DNA of 64,000 bases from NCBI GenBank assembly GCA_017557535.1, contig JAFYYM010000097.1, forward strand, positions 1 through 64,000, read 5' to 3'. The position numbers and the translations under genes are program-made. Source of the DNA: Bacteroidales bacterium. GTDB lineage: Bacteria; Bacteroidota; Bacteroidia; Bacteroidales; UBA932. Of this stretch, positions 13,697 to 24,125 are shown piece after piece; the stretch's first letter is position 1; each line of letters begins with the position of its first letter. A model generated the notes under the pieces. It was not told where the DNA came from, did not search any database, and worked only from the letters and a program-made list of their open reading frames with translations.

Positions 13697-15115
13697 ATGG
13701 AGAAGAAGAACGGAAAGATACTGGTTGTGGACGATAACCTGGGGATTCGCCAGGCACTTAAAATCTTGTTGCCGATGTACTTCGAGGCGGTTGAGACTAT
13801 TCCCTCCCCCTCGACACTGGTCTCCACTCTGGAGAGTTTCAGGCCTGATGTAGTGCTTCTTGACATGAACTTCAACACCAGCATAAACACCGGTAATGAA
13901 GGGTTATATTGGGCTGGGGAGATCAAGAAAATGGCTCCGGATGTGGAGGTGGTGTTATTCACCGCTTATGCGGATATACAACTGGCTGTGGAGGGGATGA
14001 AGCGGGGCGCCTTTGATTTCATAGTGAAGCCATGGGATAACGACAAACTGATTGAGGTGCTGACTGGGGCGAGGGATAAGGCCAGGAAGGCGATGGGCAG
14101 GGATGCCCGATCAAAGTCGGGCATGACGGGCTGCACGTCTGAAGTGACGGCTATGTTCTGGGGCACCTCAAAGCCCATGTTGGCTATCCGCAAGACCGTT
14201 GAGAAGATTGCTCCCACTGACGCCACAGTCCTAATCACGGGAGAGAACGGAACGGGAAAGGATGTGTTGGCCCGGGAGATTCACGCCCACAGCCTTAGGA
14301 GTGAGAAACCGATGGTGGCGGTGGATGCGGGCGCCATAACTGAGACCCTCTTTGAGAGCGAGCTATTCGGCCATGTCAAAGGAGCGTTCACCGATGCGCA
14401 CACTGACCATGTGGGCAAGTTCGAGCAGGCGGACGGAGGAACATTGTTCCTCGATGAGATAGGCAATATTCCTTTACATCTTCAAGCGAAGTTGTTGAGA
14501 GTGATTCAGAATCGTAGTGTCGTCCGGGTAGGAGGCACCGAGGCCAGACCTGTGAATATACGCCTTATCTGCGCCACTAATATGGATCTGGGAGCGCTGG
14601 TTCGTGAAGGCAGGTTCCGTGAGGACCTGTATTACCGCATCAACACCGTACATATAGCCCTGCCACCTTTAAGGGAGCGTATCGAGGATATCGTCCCGCT
14701 GGCGGAGAGGTTCATAGACGAATTCTCCCTGAAATATCACCGTCAAATCTCAGGGCTGGACGACAGCGCCGCCGAAATCCTGAAGGGACAACGCTGGAGC
14801 GGCAATATACGAGAACTGCGGAACAGCATCGAGAAAGCGGTGATTTTGAGTGATTCAAAGATTCTTTCGGCAAAGGATATCCAGATAGATGCCCGATCAC
14901 AGTCGGGCATGACAGGTGGTACGTCGGGCATGACAGCTATGCACCTGGGCATCCCTGGTCATTCCCGGCTTGACCGGGAATCCATGGCCAAAGAAGATGA
15001 GCAGATGGTCCGTGACGCCATGGAACGCGCTCGGGGCAACATTTCCGCCGCGGCGAAAATGCTTGGGGTAAGCCGGCCCACGCTATATGCGAAACTAAAG
15101 AAATACGGCCTTTGA
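13697..15115 (+). CDS. NtrC-family sigma-54-dependent response regulator
   Basis: A 472-residue regulator with a receiver domain (1 to about 128, phospho-acceptor Asp56 in VVLLDMNF), an AAA+ sigma-54 interaction domain (about 155-390; Walker A GENGTGKD, the GAFTDA form of the GAFTGA loop, Walker [12 protein letters not shown], arginine-rich segment near [11 protein letters not shown]) and a Fis-type helix-turn-helix (about 430-472, [20 protein letters not shown]). It would activate RpoN promoters from upstream sites. Both interdomain linkers are encoded by REP-like palindromes, giving the similar peptides [10 protein letters not shown] and [10 protein letters not shown]. The histidine kinase follows after 47 bases. 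Its likely target is the efflux operon with the sigma-54-like promoter at 10720-10736. Confidence 0.95.
14103..14124. repeat. REP-like palindrome in the REC-AAA+ linker
   Basis: ATGCCCGA and TCGGGCAT (8-base arms, loop TCAAAG), followed by GACGG. Encodes linker residues at about 136-143 of the response regulator. Confidence 0.65.
14889..14910. repeat. REP-like palindrome in the AAA+-HTH linker
   Basis: ATGCCCGA and TCGGGCAT around TCACAG, followed by GACAGG. It differs from the copy at 14103 only in the loop. A half copy (ACGTCGGGCATGACA) follows at 14921-14935. Confidence 0.65.
14961..14981. repeat. REP-like palindrome variant, reversed orientation
   Basis: ATTCCCGG and CCGGGAAT flank CTTGA. 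Read on the minus strand it follows the same plan (GGATTCCCGGTC, then CCGGGAATGAC). It lies in the same linker of the response regulator just before the Fis domain. Confidence 0.6.
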
Positions 15116-15162: not shown

Positions 15163-16038
15163 ATGGAAACTTGGCAAATCATATTGCTGGTAGCTATCGT
15201 CGCGATTATCGTGGCGGTGCTGGCCATAATCCGCACACGCCAGAAGGATATCAAGAAGGTGGCCTACATGATGGACGCCCTGGAAGACGGGGAACTGAAT
15301 TTCCGCTTCCAGGACAAGAACAGGTTCAACCGGACGCTTAACCGCATCAGGACTATCTTCGAGAAGCAGCGTCAGCAGCATGAGCAGGATTCCTGGACCA
15401 AACTCATCCGGGTGCTTACCCATGAGATCATGAACACCGTCTCCCCGATCGCTTCCTTGTCCGACGCCCTTGCCAAGTCTGTGGATGAGAACGGCCATAG
15501 CGAACTTGACGTCAAGGCTGGACTAGAGACCATATCCGACTCCTCGAAGAACCTCATCGACTTTGTGAAGACCTATAGAGAACTCTCCGGAGTGGCAAAG
15601 CCAGTACGGAAGGCGCTGGTTCTGAATGATTTGATAAACAGTGTCATTGCCCTGAACAGCGAATATACGGCATCATGCGGCGCCGTCTGCTCTTATCGGC
15701 CCGAAGATGATGACCTGATGGTTTTCGCCGATGAGGGGCAGATTTCCCAGATATTCATAAACCTTATCAAGAACGCCCTGCAGGCTGGTGCGAAGCACAT
15801 AGACATAACCGCCAAAATGGGCAAGGATGATGAGGTGATCGTCGATGTGGCCAATGATGGTGAGCCTATCCCTGCAAGCAGCCAGGAGCAGATTTTCATT
15901 CCTTTCTACACGACCAAGAAGGAAGGCTCCGGAATAGGGTTGTCAATATCACGTCAGATCATGCGCAACCACAACGGCAGTATCGAACTGACGCAAAGCG
16001 ACGCCAGTCGGACTGTCTTCGAATTGATATTCAGGTAG
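15163..16038 (+). CDS. sensor histidine kinase (no obvious sensor domain)
   Basis: A 291-residue kinase with one N-terminal membrane span (about residues 6-24), a short cytoplasmic linker, an H-box with His87 in RVLTHEIMNTVSP and an ATPase domain with N-box FINLIKNALQAG, G1 box DVANDGEPI, F-box FIPFYTTKKEG and G2 box GSGIGLSISRQI. It lacks a periplasmic domain, so it must sense through its membrane span, the linker, or a partner such as the efflux complex. It is encoded directly downstream of the NtrC-type regulator, its evident phosphotransfer partner. Confidence 0.93.
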   Translation: METWQIILLVAIVAIIVAVLAIIRTRQKDIKKVAYMMDALEDGELNFRFQDKNRFNRTLNRIRTIFEKQRQQHEQDSWTKLIRVLTHEIMNTVSPIASLSDALAKSVDENGHSELDVKAGLETISDSSKNLIDFVKTYRELSGVAKPVRKALVLNDLINSVIALNSEYTASCGAVCSYRPEDDDLMVFADEGQISQIFINLIKNALQAGAKHIDITAKMGKDDEVIVDVANDGEPIPASSQEQIFIPFYTTKKEGSGIGLSISRQIMRNHNGSIELTQSDASRTVFELIFR

Positions 16039-16041
16039 TTA

Positions 16042-16662
16042 TTAGGATATCTCTACCCTCAGGTCCTTTGCCAGGGTGAGTATTTTCTTTGATGTCTCAG
16101 TGCTTTTCAGAAGCTTTGTCCGAACCTGAAGGATCGCTTTCTCTTCAGCGACAATGAACGAGTCGATTTCTATCTTCTTCGCTTTCGCGGAATCCATGAA
16201 CTCGAGAAGCCTCTCACTGGTGACCGGGGACAGGGAGACGGTAATTATACGCTCGCTGTATTTGCTAGTGATGAAATGCATGGCCTCAAGACAGATTATT
16301 GTAAAAAGCATGGCGGCCGTGGCTATGGCATACATGCCCGCTCCACAGGCCAAACCGATCGCCGCGGCTACCCAAAGACCAGCCGCGGTTGTGATGCCCC
16401 TGACCACATTTTTCTGGAAAATAATGACTCCCGCACCGATAAAACCGATACCTGACACAACCTGGGCCGCTACCCTGGCGTGGTCGAACTGACCCGTAAA
16501 GGCATACTGCGAGATAATCATGAACAAGGCACTGCCTAGCGCGACGATGAAATGGGTGCGGACCCCCGCCTCTTTTGCCCTGAACTCGCGCTCAAAACCA
16601 ATCGCTCCGCCAAGAAGGCCGGCCACGAGAAGTCTTATTATGAAATTCCACTCTATTGTCAT
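16042..16662 (-). CDS. MgtC/SapB family membrane protein
   Basis: A 206-residue protein with the family hallmark LLGGAIGFEREFRAKEAGVRTH at the N-terminus, then four to five membrane spans including RVAAQVVSGIGFIGAGVI and GLWVAAAIGLACGAG, and a C-terminal ACT-like cytoplasmic domain (about 140-206). MgtC proteins help cells cope with low magnesium, and in Salmonella MgtC also affects phosphate uptake and ATP levels. Here it is the last gene of an eight-gene operon with phosphate-related members (12-base gap), which favours a link to phosphate or ATP balance; that link is my inference. Confidence 0.93.
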   Translation of the reverse strand: MTIEWNFIIRLLVAGLLGGAIGFEREFRAKEAGVRTHFIVALGSALFMIISQYAFTGQFDHARVAAQVVSGIGFIGAGVIIFQKNVVRGITTAAGLWVAAAIGLACGAGMYAIATAAMLFTIICLEAMHFITSKYSERIITVSLSPVTSERLLEFMDSAKAKKIEIDSFIVAEEKAILQVRTKLLKSTETSKKILTLAKDLRVEIS

Positions 16663-16674
16663 ATCGTTATCGGT

Positions 16675-18285
16675 TTAAAATAATCCAGGAGTGATGTTGA
16701 GCCATTTTAGGACTGTCTGCCCGAACAGCAGGATGAGGAACCATGAGAAGGTCATCATCGTGATACCGTATTTGAAGGCATCAGTCTGGCTATATTGGTT
16801 TGTATTGTAAAGAAGCGCCGCCGGCTTGCTGTTGAAAGGAAGCACGTAGCAGTGCTCGATGAGCATGGCGACCGGGAGGGAAAGGCTCATGGGCATGAAC
16901 CCGAACCTCTGTTCCACTCCGAGAGCGATCGGTACGAAAACCATAGTGCGGATAGTCTTGCTCTGGAACACCAGTCCCGAATACATCATCAGGAACGTCA
17001 GCACCACGTACAAGACCCAGAACGGTGTGTCGGAGGTTATTCCCATCGAGTCAAAAGCGGCGTTGACCATGGTGTTCGGGAGGTCTGTCGCGTTTAGTCC
17101 GCTTCCAAGCACATATGCTCCGGCTGAGAAAAGCATCAGGTGCCATGGTATGTCCACATCGTTCCATTTCACTACCCCGATTCCAGGCAGCAAGGCCAGA
17201 ATGGCTCCGATCAAAGCCACGATGGTCTCGTCAATATTATGGAAGGTGCCTTTGGTGACCCACAGGAAGAGGACGACAAGGAATATCGAGACGGCTCTCC
17301 ACTCTTGCGCGCTCATCTTGCCCATGGAATCCAACTCGATTTTAAGGCGCTCAATACCACCCTCGATCTGTGGTTTCTGCTCTTCCTTTTTCATCGGGAA
17401 GAATACGTACATTCCGACCAAAAGACCGACGACCAGAATGATTATGCTCATTGGTCCGACAGCTATGAGCCAGTCTGAATAACCAAAGTCGCAAGAACCG
17501 AGGAAACCGGCAATCAAAGAGATGGCGAGAAGATGGGCTCCGGAACCAGTATAAAAGGCGTTTGCTCCGATATTCACCTGGAACAAATTCTGTATAACCA
17601 GATTACGTCCAAAGTTGTTCCTATTCCCGTCGGAGGCTCCATAGATCGCGCATATCACCATGAAGATGGGTAGCATGATGGTCGCCTTGACCGTGGTCGC
17701 GGATATGAAAGCCGAAAGCACCAGGTTGATCACGAGGAAACTCCAAAGCACACCTTTCGCGCTTTTCCCGAATTTGATCACGAACGCTAATGCGAGTCGT
17801 TTCGCGAATTGAGTTTTCACCAGCATGGAAGCTAGCACGAAGCTCAAGATATTCAGCCACATGACCGGATGTCCAAGCTGGGCGAGGGCCTCTTTCTGAG
17901 TGGTCACGTTGAAAAGCACCACGCCAAGCATCAAGATGAGCGAGGTGAGGTAATTGGGCAAGGCCTCAGTCATCCACAATATGAGGCTAGCCACGAATAT
18001 CGCCAACATCGCATAGTTGGCGCGAAGGAAACCGTCCATTCCCAGCACCCCGAGCCGCTTTTCAGCGGTGGAGGCCAAACCGGACGGATCCAGATTGTCG
18101 ATAAAGCCGATATGGCAGAACCAGCATATCCAGACAAAGGCGACGATAGCCAGAGGCCCTCCCAAACGGGCCATCCAAACCTCGAATTTGGATTTCCGCA
18201 TCTTGGGAAGTTTCTCAATCTTGTAGTTGTTCATGTCCAGCGGATCGAACGATGTCGCCGCCTTTGTCTCGATATCTGTCGCCAT
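16675..18285 (-). CDS. SLC13/DASS-family anion transporter
   Basis: A 536-residue polytopic protein with a long hydrophilic N-terminus (about 40 residues) and around twelve hydrophobic segments in the DASS pattern. The two family SNT signatures are altered: the first reads SATTVKATIMLPIF (Ser195-Ala-Thr) and the second lies in QSKTIRTMVFVPIAL. DASS proteins import dicarboxylates, citrate, sulfate or, in the yeast low-affinity Pho transporters, phosphate. The altered signatures and the operon (PhoU-like protein, phosphate-type porin, triphosphatase) suggest phosphate or a polyphosphate-related anion rather than a dicarboxylate; this is inference. The gene follows the CYTH gene with a 2-base gap. 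Confidence 0.9.
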   Translation of the reverse strand: MATDIETKAATSFDPLDMNNYKIEKLPKMRKSKFEVWMARLGGPLAIVAFVWICWFCHIGFIDNLDPSGLASTAEKRLGVLGMDGFLRANYAMLAIFVASLILWMTEALPNYLTSLILMLGVVLFNVTTQKEALAQLGHPVMWLNILSFVLASMLVKTQFAKRLALAFVIKFGKSAKGVLWSFLVINLVLSAFISATTVKATIMLPIFMVICAIYGASDGNRNNFGRNLVIQNLFQVNIGANAFYTGSGAHLLAISLIAGFLGSCDFGYSDWLIAVGPMSIIILVVGLLVGMYVFFPMKKEEQKPQIEGGIERLKIELDSMGKMSAQEWRAVSIFLVVLFLWVTKGTFHNIDETIVALIGAILALLPGIGVVKWNDVDIPWHLMLFSAGAYVLGSGLNATDLPNTMVNAAFDSMGITSDTPFWVLYVVLTFLMMYSGLVFQSKTIRTMVFVPIALGVEQRFGFMPMSLSLPVAMLIEHCYVLPFNSKPAALLYNTNQYSQTDAFKYGITMMTFSWFLILLFGQTVLKWLNITPGLF

Positions 18286-18287
18286 GA

Positions 18288-18764
18288 TTACTTCCAGTTC
18301 TTATAAGGATTCTTCATCAACATGGAATTGAAGTATTTGGGGTCGCCGGTGACCTCCTCTCCAAGCCACTCGGGCTTGTCGAAAGGCTCGTTCTCGTCGG
18401 CGAGTTCCACCTCGGCGACCGTAAGGCCGTCGTTGTCGCCATAGAACTCGTCAACCTCCCAAGTGTGCTTGCCATCAGTATTCTTGACAAGATAACGAGT
18501 CTTGTCAATGACACCGGGCTCGGCCAGTTCAAGAAGGGACTTAACTTCATCGACAGGGATCTCCTTCTCCCACTCGAAACGAGCCGCTCCTGAAGCGTTT
18601 CCGATACCCTTCACTGTGATGAATCCCTTATCGCCCTTGACCCTGATGCGGACAGTCCTCTCGGGGACGCTGCTCAGGTAACCCTGGGTGATGCGGGTGG
18701 CCTTGAATGCCTCGTTCTTGAAGTCACCTTTGACCAAGAACTTCTTCTCTATTTCCTGTGCCAT
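18288..18764 (-). CDS. CYTH-domain triphosphate tunnel metalloenzyme
   Basis: A 158-residue protein that reads end to end as a short bacterial CYTH enzyme. It has the ExExK signature EIEKKF (residues 4-9), basic tunnel residues in RTVRIRVKGDKGFITVKG, acidic metal ligands in FEWEKEIP and VAEVEL, and the closing segment EEVTGDPKYFNSML, which mirrors the Nitrosomonas triphosphatase type. Members of this size hydrolyse inorganic triphosphate; larger relatives include class IV adenylate cyclase and thiamine triphosphatase. In this operon a role in tripolyphosphate or polyphosphate breakdown is likely. It overlaps nothing and lies 4 bases after the divergent CYTH gene. Confidence 0.9.
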   Translation of the reverse strand: MAQEIEKKFLVKGDFKNEAFKATRITQGYLSSVPERTVRIRVKGDKGFITVKGIGNASGAARFEWEKEIPVDEVKSLLELAEPGVIDKTRYLVKNTDGKHTWEVDEFYGDNDGLTVAEVELADENEPFDKPEWLGEEVTGDPKYFNSMLMKNPYKNWK

Positions 18765-18768
18765 AATC

Positions 18769-19407
18769 TTACTCGTTAGCTAAAGGTTTATCAATCATAC
18801 CGATGACCCTCTTGATAGCCTGGAGATAATTGATATTCTCCACACCCTCGAGACCGCAGTCGGAGATGGTCTTCTTAATGTCCTCAATCTCAGTCGACTC
18901 TGAGTTGATAGTCACCACCTTGGCTCCGTTGATCAGGACATTGCCAACTTCGCATATAGTGTTGTTGACCATGTAGCCGAAACGCTGCTTGTGGACTCTG
19001 ACAGCCGCGAGATCAGGATTGGCTTTAACCATTGCGATGAACTCCTCAAAAGTGTAGGTGTCCTTTGTCAAAGCCGGCATCTCAACCATGAAAGCGGGGA
19101 AAACCTCTTTCTCAAGAACCTCTTTCGAGATAGGGAACTCGCCTTTCATGAGCGGATTCCACTGCTCGAGACCATCCACGGTCTGGACATATGTCTTGAT
19201 GTCCATCTTGCCGTCACGGATCTTGGTGTTGTTGATGTCGTTCTTAGCGGAGATGATGTAAATCTCGTCGCTTGTACGCTCCCATACCTTTTCGGGCACA
19301 GGGACGGAAAGACGGGCCATTCTCTTGTGGGCGGCGCAGAAGCACTGTCCAAAACTACGGAATTCAAAGCGAGGCTTGCTCTGCTCGCCGATTTTCAGTT
19401 CTGCCAT
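18769..19407 (-). CDS. divergent CYTH-like protein
   Basis: A 212-residue soluble protein. I recognise a CYTH-like order of charged strands: FEFRSFG near the N-terminus, EIYIIS, NTKIRDGKMDIKTY with spaced Arg and Lys, VRVHKQRFGYMVNNTICEV, and INSESTEIEDIK near the C-terminus. The ExExK motif is not clean. It may be a second triphosphate-tunnel protein that forms a pair with, or regulates, the canonical CYTH enzyme encoded 4 bases downstream; an enzyme with another phosphate substrate is equally possible. The assignment depends on structure comparison. Confidence 0.6.
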   Translation of the reverse strand: MAELKIGEQSKPRFEFRSFGQCFCAAHKRMARLSVPVPEKVWERTSDEIYIISAKNDINNTKIRDGKMDIKTYVQTVDGLEQWNPLMKGEFPISKEVLEKEVFPAFMVEMPALTKDTYTFEEFIAMVKANPDLAAVRVHKQRFGYMVNNTICEVGNVLINGAKVVTINSESTEIEDIKKTISDCGLEGVENINYLQAIKRVIGMIDKPLANE

Positions 19408-19432: not shown

Positions 19433-20275
19433 TTAATTTTTCACATAATCATCTTCAACTGCTTCCGTTGAATTGAATGCCCCGGGAGTGGTCTTGTCTG
19501 TACGCATCCATTTGCCTGTTCCGTCGGGGACACGGCTCCATGAACCATCAAAGGCAGTAATGGAAGCGCCCCACTTACCAGCATCATCCTTATCACCTCG
19601 TTGGAAAATATCGATCTTATTACCTTTGTTGTCAAACAGCTCAAGCAGAACACTCTTCTTTGCAGAGAACCCACTCTTGAAACCTTTGGTTGGATCAGAA
19701 TCCTCTTTCTTGGTCTTGGCACCTATTATTACAAAACATCCCTTTGCGGGAGCAACGTGTCCATCAATACCAGTCCATGTTAGCTCTTCATCTTTGGTAA
19801 TGGTAACTCCTGTTAATTTAATAGGAAAATCACTACCATTGTAAAGCTCGATAAACTTGTCATCGTCAGATCCTTTGTTAGCACCAAACACCTCATTGAA
19901 CTTCAGTTTTGTCCAATCAGGGGCGGGATCACCAACCTTGAAAGAGAACTTGTCAGATGTTGTCTTGAATCCAGCCTCGTTGTCAACTGTCACAGTGAAA
20001 GATATTTCCGTTCCATCAGGCTGAGCCGGAATGGTGGCGGTGAATTGAGAACCCGAACCATTCATCGGGACACTGGTTCCATTATAGTTGAGAGTCGCGG
20101 AGGTGACGGCCTGGAGACCAGACACATTCGCAGTCACATTAATCGGAGTGATGGAGGTTGGAGCCTCTGGTGAAAAGGCCACCTTGTCTATGCTGGACGG
20201 GCCCTCGAATATCTTGTCTTCCACGCATCCGAAAAGCGCGATGAGAGCAGCGGAAAGTAAAAGTATCTTTTTCAT
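19433..20275 (-). CDS. lipoprotein with lamin-tail domain
   Basis: A 280-residue lipoprotein with signal peptide and lipobox at LIALFGC. An Ig-like region (about 30-120) is followed by a lamin-tail (LTD) fold (about 125-265) with the typical LKFNEVFGANKGSDDDKFIELYNGS and APAKGCFVII segments. LTD domains in bacteria occur on surface proteins and are thought to bind nucleic acids or other polyanions or to anchor proteins. It lies between the porin gene (21-base gap) and the CYTH-like gene (25-base gap), so a surface capture role for a phosphate polymer is worth considering. Confidence 0.8.
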   Translation of the reverse strand: MKKILLLSAALIALFGCVEDKIFEGPSSIDKVAFSPEAPTSITPINVTANVSGLQAVTSATLNYNGTSVPMNGSGSQFTATIPAQPDGTEISFTVTVDNEAGFKTTSDKFSFKVGDPAPDWTKLKFNEVFGANKGSDDDKFIELYNGSDFPIKLTGVTITKDEELTWTGIDGHVAPAKGCFVIIGAKTKKEDSDPTKGFKSGFSAKKSVLLELFDNKGNKIDIFQRGDKDDAGKWGASITAFDGSWSRVPDGTGKWMRTDKTTPGAFNSTEAVEDDYVKN

Positions 20276-20296: not shown

Positions 20297-21664
20297 TTAG
20301 AAGTCAATCTCGAAACGGAATGCAAGCATATGGTAGTCGACACCAGCCTTCCCTGTAGGGGTAGCGACTTTGGTGTAGTCCTTCGTGGGTTTACCGTTGG
20401 AGTCAAGGCCGACATTGAGTTTGCCCTTTCCGTTAGCGTAACGGTCATTGTTGTTGTACTGGTAGTTCAGCTGCATCTTGACATTCTCGTTCACCCAATA
20501 GTTGAGACCAAGGGTGTAAGCCTCTGATGCTCCGCCAAAGACATTGCCGAAGTTAAGGTTGCAGGTCTCATAGCGGGCGCAAAGCTCGATATCTCCCCAA
20601 TCATGGGCGCGCTCCACCTTGGTGTATTTGCCTCCCTTGGAATCATAACGCTGCTTTCCTCCAAAGAGCAGATATCCAGCCTGTGCGTACCAACCTCCGA
20701 AGTTCTTTGTCTCGGGATCGGCCGCGTCAGCTTTGAAATGGACATTGTCACCGACATAAGCGGCCTCATAACGGAGACCATCCCAGTGGCCGGCAAGCTC
20801 GACGGTCCACAGGTTGTTGTGGTCAAAGCCGGGGAGATTGTTGGTGTCGAGATATTTCTTACGGTTGATACTTGTGGAGTTACGGGCGCTGGCGCGGTAA
20901 GTTCCCCACTCTCCAGTGGCCAGATCGGTAGTCGTGGTCCTGTAGGAATATGCCGCACCGATGTGGAGACTGGCGTTGTCCAGCTTGTAAAGAGGACGGA
21001 GCACGAGTTTGGTCGTCCAGGCGTAACCGGAATTACGGCCGAAGTCCTTATTATTATCAGCGACATTGGTCCATTCCTCCTGTCCGGCGATCACCTGTGA
21101 GAAAGCGCCTGTTGAGAACCAGAGCCAGTTTTTGGCGTACTTGGCATTGATTCCAATATGGCGGGAAGGGGTCAAAGCGGAGCAGACCATCGGACGCTCC
21201 ATAAACTGCAGATAACGGGATGTGGTATTCCTCTGGATAGAGAAATTCTCCTTGAAGTTACCTACCTGAAGATCCAGGTCAGGGATTCCGGTGTAACGGA
21301 TGATAGCGTCTTTCAGTTCAGCGAGTCCATTGGCGAGATCCATGTCGAATTCTCCATACCATTTCTCGTCAATCTGTCCTTTGACCGCGAAACGGGCACG
21401 GCGGATCTGGGCTCCATTTCCAATGGCGTCCGCATAATCGGGAGCTCCGAAGAACACGGCCGCATCGGCTTGGGCACGGACGTCAAACCATAGCTTGTAA
21501 CCGCTTGTGGGAGACTCGAGAACCAGGATTCCATCCTGCGCCTCCACATCAAGCCTGTCGGATTTAACCTGTACGCCATACTGATTGTACTTGGCGTTCT
21601 TCTGCGCGAATGCCGCGGGCATGACCAGCAGCAACGTCGCGATTATGAAAGGTATCTTACGCAT
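20297..21664 (-). CDS. OprP/OprO-like phosphate-selective porin
   Basis: A 455-residue outer-membrane beta-barrel with a signal peptide ending near AAFAQ, many alternating amphipathic strands and an aromatic C-terminal residue (ends FEIDF). The sections SGYKLWFDVRAQAD, RRARFAVKGQIDEKWYGEFDMDLANG, DLQVGNFKENFSIQRNTTSRYLQFMERP and KMQLNYQYNN match the Porin_O_P family, which contains the phosphate and pyrophosphate channels OprP and OprO. Substrate selectivity cannot be read from the family alone, because Bacteroidota have many such porins, but the operon supports a phosphate-type anion. Confidence 0.88.
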   Translation of the reverse strand: MRKIPFIIATLLLVMPAAFAQKNAKYNQYGVQVKSDRLDVEAQDGILVLESPTSGYKLWFDVRAQADAAVFFGAPDYADAIGNGAQIRRARFAVKGQIDEKWYGEFDMDLANGLAELKDAIIRYTGIPDLDLQVGNFKENFSIQRNTTSRYLQFMERPMVCSALTPSRHIGINAKYAKNWLWFSTGAFSQVIAGQEEWTNVADNNKDFGRNSGYAWTTKLVLRPLYKLDNASLHIGAAYSYRTTTTDLATGEWGTYRASARNSTSINRKKYLDTNNLPGFDHNNLWTVELAGHWDGLRYEAAYVGDNVHFKADAADPETKNFGGWYAQAGYLLFGGKQRYDSKGGKYTKVERAHDWGDIELCARYETCNLNFGNVFGGASEAYTLGLNYWVNENVKMQLNYQYNNNDRYANGKGKLNVGLDSNGKPTKDYTKVATPTGKAGVDYHMLAFRFEIDF

Positions 21665-21688: not shown

Positions 21689-23272
21689 TTATATTGCTCT
21701 TATGAATTTGATAAGGTTGTCACTTCTTTGAAGACCCAGCTTGCAGCGAAGCCGGTAACGGTTGATTTCCACACTCTTAGGAGCTATATTCATCAACGAG
21801 GCGATATATTTTGAGGAGAATCCCTGCCTGAGGAGGTTGGCGAGTTTCCTCTCGTTCTCGGTCAGATTTGGATAAGCCTCGGAGAGACGCAGGTTGAAAT
21901 CCCGGTGCAACACCTCGCTGCGGGCGTAGAAATCATTCATCTCGCTCGTGAAATACATCCTTTCCCTCATTGAAGAGAGCAGAGAGTCCGTTCTAGCGTC
22001 TTTCGCCTCACCGTCAGGCATGGCTCGCACCTCCTTGAGATCCTCGTAAAAGCTCTCCATGAATTTCTTCTGGTCCCCAATGCCAAGGGCGAAATCAACG
22101 AGTTCCTTACGCTTGATATCCAACTTGTTAAGAAGGTCTTTCTCAGTCATTTCCGTCTTGACTTCAAGGGCGGATAATGAACGTTGGGTGCTGAATAGCT
22201 GCCGTTCCCTGGCACGTAGTATCTGATTCTGGAGCTCCCTTCCGCTTTTCCAACGGAAATACAGCGCTACACCTGCCGCCATGGCTGTGAGGGTGAGCGC
22301 GAACAAGGAACCCATCACTGTCCCATCAATAACCTTCGCCAGGCAGTATGACAGAATAAAAGCAAGGATGGGAGCCAAAACCGACGAGAGAATAGTACCG
22401 GCGATGATCTTGGAATCTGTGAGAGCCCTTTGACGAGCGACACTGATCCCTGTGAGGGCTGATATGAACAACAACCCTGCGGGAAGCGGAGTAGCCGCCA
22501 TCCCTATCTTTCCCGGCAGTGGACTTGAGAACAAAACGAAAACCACTGCCATTGAGAGGATCACGGAAGATATGGATTGGGAATTGACATCAAGTTCGTA
22601 ATCCGCGATATTCCATGTGTCGATAGATATCCCCTTCCTCATCAGGAGAAACAAAAAGGCGGCACAGCCTCCAGCGACAGCCATGCGAGCCATTGAGGGG
22701 ACTGGAACGGCTCGTGTCAAAAACGTGAAAAGCAGGGAATAATTAACAGAGAACGCAACAAGAAGAATGACTGAGGTGATCATGGATACTCCTCTCTCGT
22801 TTCTCAATGTCAGGGCATATATCCGGTATATTCCCGCCGCCAGAAGGGCGCAAAGGATAGGGGCTGCCATCCATGAAAAGACAAAGGAGCGAACGGCAAC
22901 AACGCTCAAATGGCCGGTGCCGGAGAGCGAGAGGCCAGCGATAGATGCAATGAACGCAAACGGGACTGCCACATAACGACCAAAACGCCCCGCCACTATA
23001 ACAGCTATCGCCGTAGCCAGTCCCACAGGAAGGACATCCGTGGCTGTTGAAGGCTTGAATATGCTTTCAGCGGCCTCCGTGAGAGGCTCGCTGGTCAATA
23101 AACATGGGAAGACAATCCCGGCCAACAGGATAAGAGGCCATAAGTATCTGACTGACAACCTTTCTCCAGCACCGGAAGCCAAAACAGTCCCATTCACGAC
23201 AGGAAGATCCCGAAGAACCGCGAGGGAACCGGCCAGAAGGGTGGAGAATATGGCATACAGCAGGATTCGCAT
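21689..23272 (-). CDS. membrane-embedded PiT-like domain fused to LuxR-type HTH regulator
   Basis: A 527-residue protein with about ten hydrophobic segments (residues 1 to about 340), a coiled coil (about 345-400) and a C-terminal LuxR-type helix-turn-helix (about 470-527, LTENERKLANLLRQGFSSKYIASLMN). The membrane part follows the order of PiT phosphate transporters: an opening repeat with VVNGTVLASGAGERLSVRY, a FAFIASIAGLSLSGTG segment where PiT has PVSTTHxxxGAxxGxG, a SFVFSWMAAPILCALLAAGIYR segment resembling the PiT KIVLSWxxSPLLG region, and a second repeat with ALTGISVARQRALTDSKIIAGTILSSVLAPI. The PiT substrate motifs (NGxHDxxN, GANDxAN) are lost. I infer a phosphate sensor derived from a transporter. 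It follows the DUF47 gene, PiT's usual partner, by 6 bases. Confidence 0.7.
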   Translation of the reverse strand: MRILLYAIFSTLLAGSLAVLRDLPVVNGTVLASGAGERLSVRYLWPLILLAGIVFPCLLTSEPLTEAAESIFKPSTATDVLPVGLATAIAVIVAGRFGRYVAVPFAFIASIAGLSLSGTGHLSVVAVRSFVFSWMAAPILCALLAAGIYRIYALTLRNERGVSMITSVILLVAFSVNYSLLFTFLTRAVPVPSMARMAVAGGCAAFLFLLMRKGISIDTWNIADYELDVNSQSISSVILSMAVVFVLFSSPLPGKIGMAATPLPAGLLFISALTGISVARQRALTDSKIIAGTILSSVLAPILAFILSYCLAKVIDGTVMGSLFALTLTAMAAGVALYFRWKSGRELQNQILRARERQLFSTQRSLSALEVKTEMTEKDLLNKLDIKRKELVDFALGIGDQKKFMESFYEDLKEVRAMPDGEAKDARTDSLLSSMRERMYFTSEMNDFYARSEVLHRDFNLRLSEAYPNLTENERKLANLLRQGFSSKYIASLMNIAPKSVEINRYRLRCKLGLQRSDNLIKFIRAI

Positions 23273-23278
23273 GACTCG

Positions 23279-23944
23279 TCAAAGGGCTCGTTTAATGGCC
23301 ATAACTGAAAGCTGCTCCGCTACTTTGACAGCGGCCTTTGCCAAATCCTCGATATGAAGGGCGAAATATCTCAAGTGGAACTTCTCACTCAACTTGAGAT
23401 CATCGACCATATCATGAAACACCGTACGCTTGATTGATTGGGAGAGCTTAACCGCTTCCTTCTCATAAAAATAAACCCTCTCAGTGGTTTCAGCGACATC
23501 CTCTGGCTGAGTAAAATAAGATTTAGTCCCGGGAATTGTGCTCTCCACAGCCATGGAAGCCAGCTCGCTTAATTTGAGGAACTCTTTCTTCAACTCCGCC
23601 GGAATCTTAGGATTCTCAATCTCAAACTGGACCAAGTCTACGCTTATTATAGATATAATATGGTCAAAACGCTCGAGAAGACGCATTATGTCACCTCTGG
23701 AGCGGATGAGATATCCCCTTGTATACAAAGTGCTCTCAATCTCCTTGATCCTGGCCCCCGCCTCAGCCTCCAAGGAAGCCATTGAGGTGAGATTCTCAAC
23801 AAAGGCAGATTCGTCGTTGTAGAGGTAATTCTTGACACCATCCCGGAATACAAGGAGAGAGTGATCGACGATGCCGAGGAGCTTATCCATGCTTCCCACC
23901 AGCGCGCCAGCCTTCTTATTTGAGAATATATCGAAGAGTCCCAT
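23279..23944 (-). CDS. DUF47/PhoU-like phosphate transport regulator
   Basis: A 221-residue all-helical protein starting MGLFDIFSNKK. Its length and helix pattern, with charged surfaces and segments such as YLIRSRGDIMRLLERFDHI, fit the DUF47 family (PhoU-related), which is usually encoded beside PiT transporters and regulates phosphate movement. I chose the ATG at 23944; an in-frame start further upstream would run through a terminator-like hairpin and is unlikely. It is the first gene of the eight-gene operon running to 16042. Confidence 0.88.
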   Translation of the reverse strand: MGLFDIFSNKKAGALVGSMDKLLGIVDHSLLVFRDGVKNYLYNDESAFVENLTSMASLEAEAGARIKEIESTLYTRGYLIRSRGDIMRLLERFDHIISIISVDLVQFEIENPKIPAELKKEFLKLSELASMAVESTIPGTKSYFTQPEDVAETTERVYFYEKEAVKLSQSIKRTVFHDMVDDLKLSEKFHLRYFALHIEDLAKAAVKVAEQLSVMAIKRAL

Positions 23945-24011
23945 ATATGTTGTTTTCTGTTTGTAATTATAGTGTATTTTACGGTAAAAACAAAACAATG
24001 TAGAGAAACAA

Positions 24012-24040
24012 AATGGCCCGTACCAGCAGTACAGGCCATT
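24012..24040 (-). terminator. intrinsic terminator after the 24126-24854 gene
   Basis: AATGGCCCGTAC (24012-24023) pairs with GTACAGGCCATT (24029-24040) with one mismatch; on the minus strand it is followed by TTGTTT. It separates the lipoprotein gene from the DUF47 operon. Confidence 0.6.
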
Positions 24041-24063
24041 CATTTAATGGTTATATAGAGTTA

Positions 24064-24092
24064 TTGTAGAGTTTTATATAGCAACTCTACAA
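24064..24092. repeat. inverted repeat TTGTAGAGTT / AACTCTACAA
   Basis: Perfect 10-base arms around a 9-base AT-rich loop, with two further GTAGAG copies nearby (23999-24006 region and 24100-24105). It lies in the 181-base gap between the DUF47 and lipoprotein genes. It may be an operator or a secondary hairpin; no T run follows. Confidence 0.45.
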
Positions 24093-24125
24093 TCGCTTTG
24101 TAGAGGTATCAGCCGCTTCGATAAA

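Follow-up and report, generated by a model that had tools for sequence, protein, structure and literature searches.

A gene in the window (the whole stretch of 64,000 nucleotides of Bacteroidales DNA analysed here) probably encodes a membrane-embedded transcription factor that is derived from a PiT phosphate transporter, works with a DUF47 protein, controls its own operon, and arose in place within that operon. The protein, PiT-HTH, joins a degenerate PiT-like membrane domain to a LuxR-type helix-turn-helix (HTH). Its open reading frame is unbroken and encodes 527 amino acids. Table 1 lists its parts and those of the surrounding operon.

Table 1. Features of the PiT-HTH operon, from its upstream region onward (positions are those of the window)
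Feature	Position	Strand	Basis
Upstream region with CTCTACA boxes, putative operator/promoter	23945..24125	-	comparison of upstream regions
Two facing CTCTACA boxes: 24099-24105 (- strand) and 24085-24091 (+ strand)	24085..24105	.	box search
Tandem box CTCTACA-ATAA-CTCTATA, 11-bp period	24054..24071	-	box search
CTCTACA box just upstream of TTTG, putative -33 element	23999..24005	-	box search
DUF47 (PhoU_div) protein, 221 aa from the likely start MGLFDIFS; listed ORF reaches 24043	23279..23944	-	Pfam, alignment
PiT-HTH protein, whole gene	21689..23272	-	ORF; Pfam GerE; PiT homology
Degenerate PiT/SLC20-like membrane domain, aa 1-312	22337..23272	-	hhalign aa 20-326, motif columns, hydropathy
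Extra transmembrane segment, aa 319-337	22262..22318	-	hydropathy peak
Coiled-coil-like linker, aa 340-466	21875..22255	-	alignment; homologous stretch in other LuxR proteins; coiled coil by eye
LuxR/GerE-type helix-turn-helix, aa 467-527	21692..21874	-	PF00196 at 469-519
Porin O/P outer-membrane protein, the operon's next gene	20297..21664	-	PF07396 3.9e-40
Lamin-tail-domain (LTD) protein	19433..20275	-	PF00932 1.7e-9; same place in relatives
Conserved 212-aa protein, no family match	18769..19407	-	homologues in relatives
CYTH-domain protein, close to 3typ and NE1496 (2fbl)	18288..18764	-	PF01928 2.8e-15; PDB 3typ 4.3e-18, 2fbl 8.9e-18
DASS/SLC13-type symporter	16675..18285	-	PF00939 6.6e-52

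The membrane domain and the helix-turn-helix

The sequence-only reading described a ten-span N-terminal part that follows the PiT fold but has lost its substrate motifs, with a LuxR-type HTH at the C-terminus. The HTH is recognised in the window protein alone, where the Pfam family GerE (PF00196) matches residues 469-519 with 29.1 bits, over the cut-off of 23.5. Its other Pfam matches all lie below the cut-off, and PHO4 is not matched at E<=1. Scanned one by one, all 30 aligned family members match the LuxR HTH at E<=0.1. The ten spans appear as ten hydropathy peaks in the PiT-like region, and an eleventh peak follows at 319-337, ahead of the linker. This extra helix would place the C-terminal HTH part in the cytoplasm, judging from the predicted topology. 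In the intact PiT-HTH forms (those that keep the transporter motifs), alignment and hydropathy give a linker and then an extra hydrophobic stretch. PiT relatives without an HTH carry C-terminal extensions of varied length past the last PiT helix.

Since a Pfam search with the single protein finds only the LuxR HTH over the cut-off, the PiT ancestry was tested through the relatives. At E<=0.1, 11 of the 30 aligned members match PHO4, the strongest with 1.8e-11, and the window protein is not one of them. Every other transporter family has a match in one member at most. A profile of 29 membrane domains was compared by hhalign with 31 broadly sampled PiTs, giving a probability of 97.6% and an E of 3e-12 over residues 20-326. 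The internal repeat is visible in a second alignment (79%). The profile consists of the window and 28 other rows, two of which duplicate other rows; L008, L013, L014, L037, the shortened forms, the DUF47-HTH proteins and other LuxR proteins were kept out of it.

As controls, reversing the alignment gives 0.19%, and 20 shuffles of its columns stay at or below 1.54%. Ten block shuffles that keep stretches intact give 19-96%, which counts against the match. Narrow PiT sets from the genus, eight short and nine long proteins (about 750 aa), are not matched significantly by hhalign. In most of the long proteins (L052-L060) the PHO4 match is split in two stretches. In a profile search of the PDB, the first entry is 6l85 (TmPiT, named “Phosphate transporter”) with an E of 1.4e-7 for the whole sequence. 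This score comes from two stretches of about 0.003 each, one in either half of the chain, and both times it is the first half of the family profile that matches. Compared as profiles with PF01384 and PiT structures, the domain therefore has a significant PiT match at the level of the family, and it would have the PiT-like fold that was read from the letters.

The fate of the substrate motifs can be followed column by column in a joint alignment of nine PiTs without an HTH, four intact PiT-HTH proteins, two shortened forms and 36 degenerate full-length members (L135, L137 and L138 are left out of the motif table). No whole motif of the GANDxAN type or of the PVST/PVSS type is kept in any of the 36, which agrees with the loss noted in the window protein. 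None keeps the glycine of the first GAND, the second asparagine of GANDxAN, or the proline and threonine of the first PVST. Other positions are retained. The aspartate of the first GAND is always acidic (Asp in 23, Glu in 13; D22 in the window), and all 36 keep the first asparagine of the second motif (N177 in the window). In the alignment, D22 stands at the retained residue of the first GAND/GANN-type motif and N177 at that of the second. The proline of the second PVSS is kept in 33 of the 36 and serine positions are kept in part (12 and 13 of 36), while the landmarks P301, G275, P262, S133 and P138 are kept in 31-35.

The ratio dN/dS of the membrane domain is 0.09-0.20 in nine degenerate pairs and 0.03-0.04 in two intact pairs. 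For the HTH it is 0-0.07 where defined, with synonymous change near saturation in some pairs. By these ratios, the degenerate membrane domain is under purifying selection. Its derivation from a PiT/SLC20 carrier, and its maintenance by selection, are well supported by the comparisons above.

A protein that retains parts of a transport site might still move phosphate or an ion, so that the transport activity itself is signalled to the HTH. Such a transceptor is plausible for the intact PiT-HTH forms, which keep the motifs checked, and the window form retains D22 and N177. A precedent is the sensor kinase CbrA, for which the available text of PMC8871633 reports histidine uptake. The same text reports that CbrA signalling is independent of transport, and in the 36 degenerate members no whole motif is left. 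For the window protein, a transceptor is highly improbable.

One operon slot and its occupants

The operon was surveyed with one script in 48 loci, the window included and near-duplicates kept. Porin O/P lies downstream in 46 of them, and the other two are cut by contig ends. In the longer loci the order DUF47, PiT-HTH, porin O/P, LTD protein, 212-aa protein, CYTH protein and SLC13-type symporter recurs, with small exceptions such as L166, which has no LTD match. The porin family is called phosphate-selective by Pfam. The CYTH protein resembles NE1496 (2fbl), which we take to be a tripolyphosphatase. Ahead of the operon in L005, L009 and L110, the genes scanned encode unrelated enzymes.

The 212-aa protein is highly conserved, with 88-97% identity in full-length matches within the genus; its operon neighbours are far more variable. 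It has no Pfam match, and its best PDB match has an E of 0.73. In the class it is found in two of 247 genomes, the window's own and G270, and in distant Bacteroidota its homologues have CYTH and SLC13-type genes as neighbours. The idea that it is a second CYTH-like enzyme was dropped, as hhalign against the operon's CYTH family gives 0.3% and the PDB search the same E of 0.73. A gene of the MgtC family (16042-16662, minus strand) directly follows the SLC13-type symporter. Beside the 3' end of the operon, on the opposite strand, lie a sigma-54-type response regulator (13697-15115) and a histidine kinase-like gene (15163-16038, both plus strand).

DUF47, the usual partner of PiT, had been placed directly upstream of the PiT-HTH gene. 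This arrangement recurs in 44 of the 48 loci. In two more DUF47 is fused (L120, L171) and in one it is joined via an assembly gap (L008), which brings the loci with an adjacent or joined DUF47 to 47 of 48; the remaining locus, L121, has no upstream sequence. The window copy scores 18.8 bits with PF01865, below the cut-off of 24.4 (the DUF47 part of L120 reaches 27.9), and aligns lengthwise with the DUF47 partners of PiT. Alignment also places its likely start at 23944 and not at 24043, which makes the listed start probably 33 codons early. With the start at 23944, one of the promoter boxes overlaps the listed open reading frame.

Motifs of the ExxAD/ExxSD type are metal sites in PhoU. The first such motif is present in the DUF47 partners of PiTs without an HTH and of intact PiT-HTH proteins. 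It reads EAEAG in the window, and its aspartate is replaced in several relatives and kept in L113. The second reads EKEAD or EREAD in partners of intact PiT-HTH and EKEAV in the window; it varies in partners of PiTs without an HTH too (KKETN, ESESD). These changes are hints, no more, that DUF47 and PiT-HTH drifted from transport roles together.

An origin from a transporter was proposed from the sequence of the window alone, and candidate intermediates are found in the same operon slot. In seven of nine distant loci, from six other families of the phylum, a PiT without an HTH lies between DUF47 and the porin. The SLC13-type gene precedes in seven of the nine, and the CYTH gene with a homologue of the 212-aa protein in six. 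As to exceptions, L194 is cut by a contig end, L190 has a weak porin match (31 bits), and L189 and L197 hold DUF47-PiT alone. In the two whose motifs were checked, these read GANDAAN (L175) and GANHAVN (L178).

An intact PiT followed by linker and HTH occurs in five genomes of the family (L145-L149) and in L129 (genome G270, of another family), with the motifs GANDAAN, PVST and PVSS. The five intact loci whose flanks were read have the same operon; the sixth, L147, stands outside the flank and box readings, and its motifs come from one alignment. Degenerate PiT-HTH is found in the window and in 15 more of 199 family genomes, three of them assigned by a low PiT score only. The membrane domain is shortened in L032 and L033. 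In L120 (5680-6648) and L171 (6219-7202) it is absent: DUF47 is fused to the HTH, and the same porin comes next. The fusion in L120 contains no gap; that in L171 (the L150 gene) has a run of X within the DUF47 part, not at the junction. An apparent DUF47-PiT-HTH fusion in L008 spans an assembly gap (a run of X) and was dropped as evidence of fusion. Finally, in L126, L127 and L128 the operon runs from the porin onward without DUF47 and HTH ahead, in genomes that have no PiT-HTH match.

A quick tree of PiT domains groups the intact fusions with the extended PiTs, with an SH-aLRT of 100 against other PiTs. In a tree of linker and HTH, made by a quick method with SH-aLRT only and after four near-duplicate rows were dropped, one family group holds the intact forms of the family, the shortened forms and the DUF47-HTH proteins. 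The linker and HTH of L129 form a long branch with other LuxR proteins, apart from the family of the window. Its PiT domain falls among the intact PiT-HTH forms and the extended PiTs, which this tree does not separate. The fusion of PiT and HTH may thus reflect one or two events.

The distribution of PiT-HTH and the loss of motifs suggest the direction in which the series would have run. On the boldest reading, which we hold at a little under even, a single operon preserves the passage from a working transporter, through a transporter joined to an HTH and a transport-dead membrane factor, to a soluble DUF47-HTH protein, and Bacteroidota control phosphate or polyphosphate by a separate route that acts through CTCTACA boxes.

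A search of other Bacteroidota finds PiT-HTH in the genus, in the family and in G270 of another family. The genome collection of the species contributes 13 loci. In the genus, 23 of 61 genomes, many of them incomplete, have any match. The HTH family is present in 21 of the 61, with a PiT-like membrane domain in 18, a shortened one in two and a DUF47-HTH in one; the two further genomes match through the HTH part alone. In the family, 57 of 199 genomes have any match at E<=1e-10, 21 along the full length. PiT-HTH occurs in one genome (G270) of 396 in the class, and in none of 392 genomes of the phylum at E<=1e-60, where 14 are matched by the PiT part. A plasmid search gives six records, none of which covers 80% of the query; among the five records listed, all matches lie in the linker and HTH part.

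A true PiT over the cut-off is found in 17 of the 61 genus genomes. The genomes give no support to the idea that PiT-HTH and true PiT exclude each other, as four of the 21 genomes with the HTH family also carry a PiT. The window's own genome (assembly given as 95% complete) has no match to PHO4 or PBP_like_2, and has one Na/Pi cotransporter-type protein of 654 aa.

The forms without a complete membrane domain raise another explanation, in which DUF47 is the sensor and passes the phosphate or polyphosphate status on to the HTH, the eroding PiT-like part serving as no more than an anchor or scaffold. The shortened domains of L032 and L033 and the absence of the domain in L120 and L171, where DUF47 is fused straight to the HTH, show that the membrane domain is not strictly needed, and the near-constant company of DUF47 points the same way as this explanation. 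Several observations speak against it. The membrane domain is under purifying selection in the nine degenerate pairs, and it keeps an invariant asparagine and an always acidic position. In addition, the ExxxD-type aspartate is lost in the DUF47 of the window and several relatives (L113 keeps one), which speaks against a simple metal or phosphate site in DUF47. DUF47 as the sole sensor is unlikely, although it is the strongest of the alternatives considered here.

CTCTACA boxes upstream of DUF47

The region upstream of DUF47 was compared in 42 loci (L008, L013, L030, L118 and L121 were left out). In the window it holds four exact CTCTACA boxes within 161 bp. One of them is immediately upstream of TTTTG, and the TTTG beside it (box 23999..24005) is presumably the -33 element of Bacteroidota promoters. 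The facing boxes and the direct repeats are distinct arrangements: CTCTACA-N6-TGTAGAG occurs in L163 and CTCTACA-N7-TGTAGAG in the window.

Of 38 loci with degenerate, shortened or DUF47-HTH forms, 32 have CTCTACA, on one strand or the other, in the 150 bp ahead of DUF47. This count omits the intact loci L167-L170, which are reported separately with L129; in four of these five (L168, L169, L170 and L129) a box lies at -105. The exact box is missing in six of the 38 loci and in the intact L167, and the six stayed without it when the stretches read were lengthened as far as contig and neighbouring gene permitted. In a non-redundant set of 30 loci, which drops eight more near-duplicates, CTCTACA is the commonest 7-mer, with 24 of 30. 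Over 200 shuffles, any 7-mer reaches at most 14 loci and CTCTACA at most two. Upstream regions of control open reading frames have it in 13 of 347, some of these sharing an intergenic stretch and many lying inside operons. In 1.35 Mb of loci, a set with redundancy, the tandem CTCTAYA-N4-CTCTAYA occurs, judged by position, only upstream of the pair of DUF47 and PiT-HTH.

The boxes are largely absent where the HTH is absent. CTCTACA is missing upstream of the porin in all three operons without DUF47 and PiT-HTH (L126-L128). In eight loci with a PiT without an HTH, it is absent from 13 of 14 regions (first-gene regions 6/6, regions upstream of DUF47 7/8). The distribution of the box thus follows the HTH, which supports binding of the boxes by the HTH. 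That PiT-HTH regulates its own operon through CTCTACA boxes is supported by this comparison of upstream sequences.

The tandem box also allows a different assignment. Its direct-repeat geometry resembles that of a Pho box, in which 7-bp direct repeats follow each other every 11 bp. The boxes could then belong to another regulator, such as a PhoB-like response regulator, with the HTH acting elsewhere; the available text of PMC3547664 reports PhoRB for Bacteroides fragilis. Such a regulator would not account for the absence of boxes in L126-L128, which lack the HTH protein, or in 13 of the 14 regions from loci with an HTH-less PiT, nor for the box at the intact PiT-HTH locus of another family (L129). 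This assignment is improbable.

A wider regulon was searched for with the pattern CTCTACAN{2,5}TTTG. It gives nine matches in the window's own genome, two of them in the DUF47 promoter region, against seven for the control, so that a regulon beyond the operon is not supported.

A proposed mechanism and known systems

In the mechanism that we favour, the PiT fold, presumably transport-dead, and DUF47 would form a sensory unit at the inner membrane. This unit would read phosphate or polyphosphate status, either through the residual D22/N177 site or via DUF47. Phosphate is plausible as the signal. The anatomy of the protein suggests that a change would travel along the additional membrane helix and the linker and so reach a paired LuxR-type HTH. 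The HTH would bind the boxes ahead of DUF47 and, as one of them is placed like an activator site, would activate the operon. In a group of gut Bacteroidota the protein would have arisen in place, because the slot between DUF47 and the porin holds a PiT without an HTH elsewhere and an intact PiT-HTH in nearer relatives.

The sequence-only reading called the protein a one-component membrane sensor. Its regulatory part fits the finding that the box tracks the HTH. “One-component” is too simple. DUF47 lies next to the protein or is joined to it in 47 of 48 loci, and in L120 and L171 it is fused to the HTH without a membrane part, so that DUF47 probably takes part in the sensing or does it itself.

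The change from a carrier to a sensor is usually inferred from its end points, and here candidate intermediates share one operon slot. They could be tested side by side for the residues lost as transport stops and for the needs of signalling. The system would offer a phosphate-linked regulator without a kinase and with a defined candidate operator, and it would give DUF47 a role as a transcriptional partner.

Receptors derived from transporters, which sense rather than carry, exist in eukaryotes as Snf3, Rgt2 and Ssy1, and to our knowledge these have no DNA-binding domain. The three yeast receptors are named in the available text of PMC8871633, which describes the CbrA-type sensor kinases as an SLC5 transporter domain joined to a histidine kinase. 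Like CbrA, PiT-HTH joins a solute-carrier fold to a signalling output. In CbrA this output is a kinase and the carrier belongs to SLC5 (PMC8871633), whereas in PiT-HTH a DNA-binding domain is joined directly to an SLC20 carrier.

The statement that no system of this type is described is too strong for the general kind, as regulators with 10-12 transmembrane segments and a LuxR domain are reported in Eggerthella in the available text of PMC9734109. For the PiT-HTH architecture itself, no description appears in the literature titles and opening abstracts covered, a scope that mostly excludes subscription papers. The closest described kind are these LuxR regulators of the Coriobacteriia, such as DadR, CadR and HcdR; the three characterised ones answer to catechols (PMC9734109). 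They share with PiT-HTH a many-spanning N-terminal membrane domain, a C-terminal LuxR HTH and genes near their targets (PMC9734109). With 11 hydropathy peaks and GerE, the window protein fits the pattern of 10-12 spans and a LuxR HTH, a likeness in architecture. It differs in that its membrane domain is derived from PiT, DUF47 is a constant partner and intermediates with an intact transporter exist; the word “transporter” is absent from the available text of PMC9734109.

Two kinds of relatives complete the comparison. The DUF47-PiT loci with a C-terminal extension (L173-L186) have a PiT of the subclade that also holds the intact PiT-HTH forms, and occupy the same slot in seven of nine loci. 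They differ in having no HTH and in carrying CTCTACA in one of 14 upstream regions, counted over eight such loci. A similar linker and C-terminal LuxR HTH are found in further membrane LuxR proteins that these genomes encode (L035, L036, L038-L043). The N-terminal parts of those inspected look, by eye, like TPR or propeller-type domains and not like a carrier.
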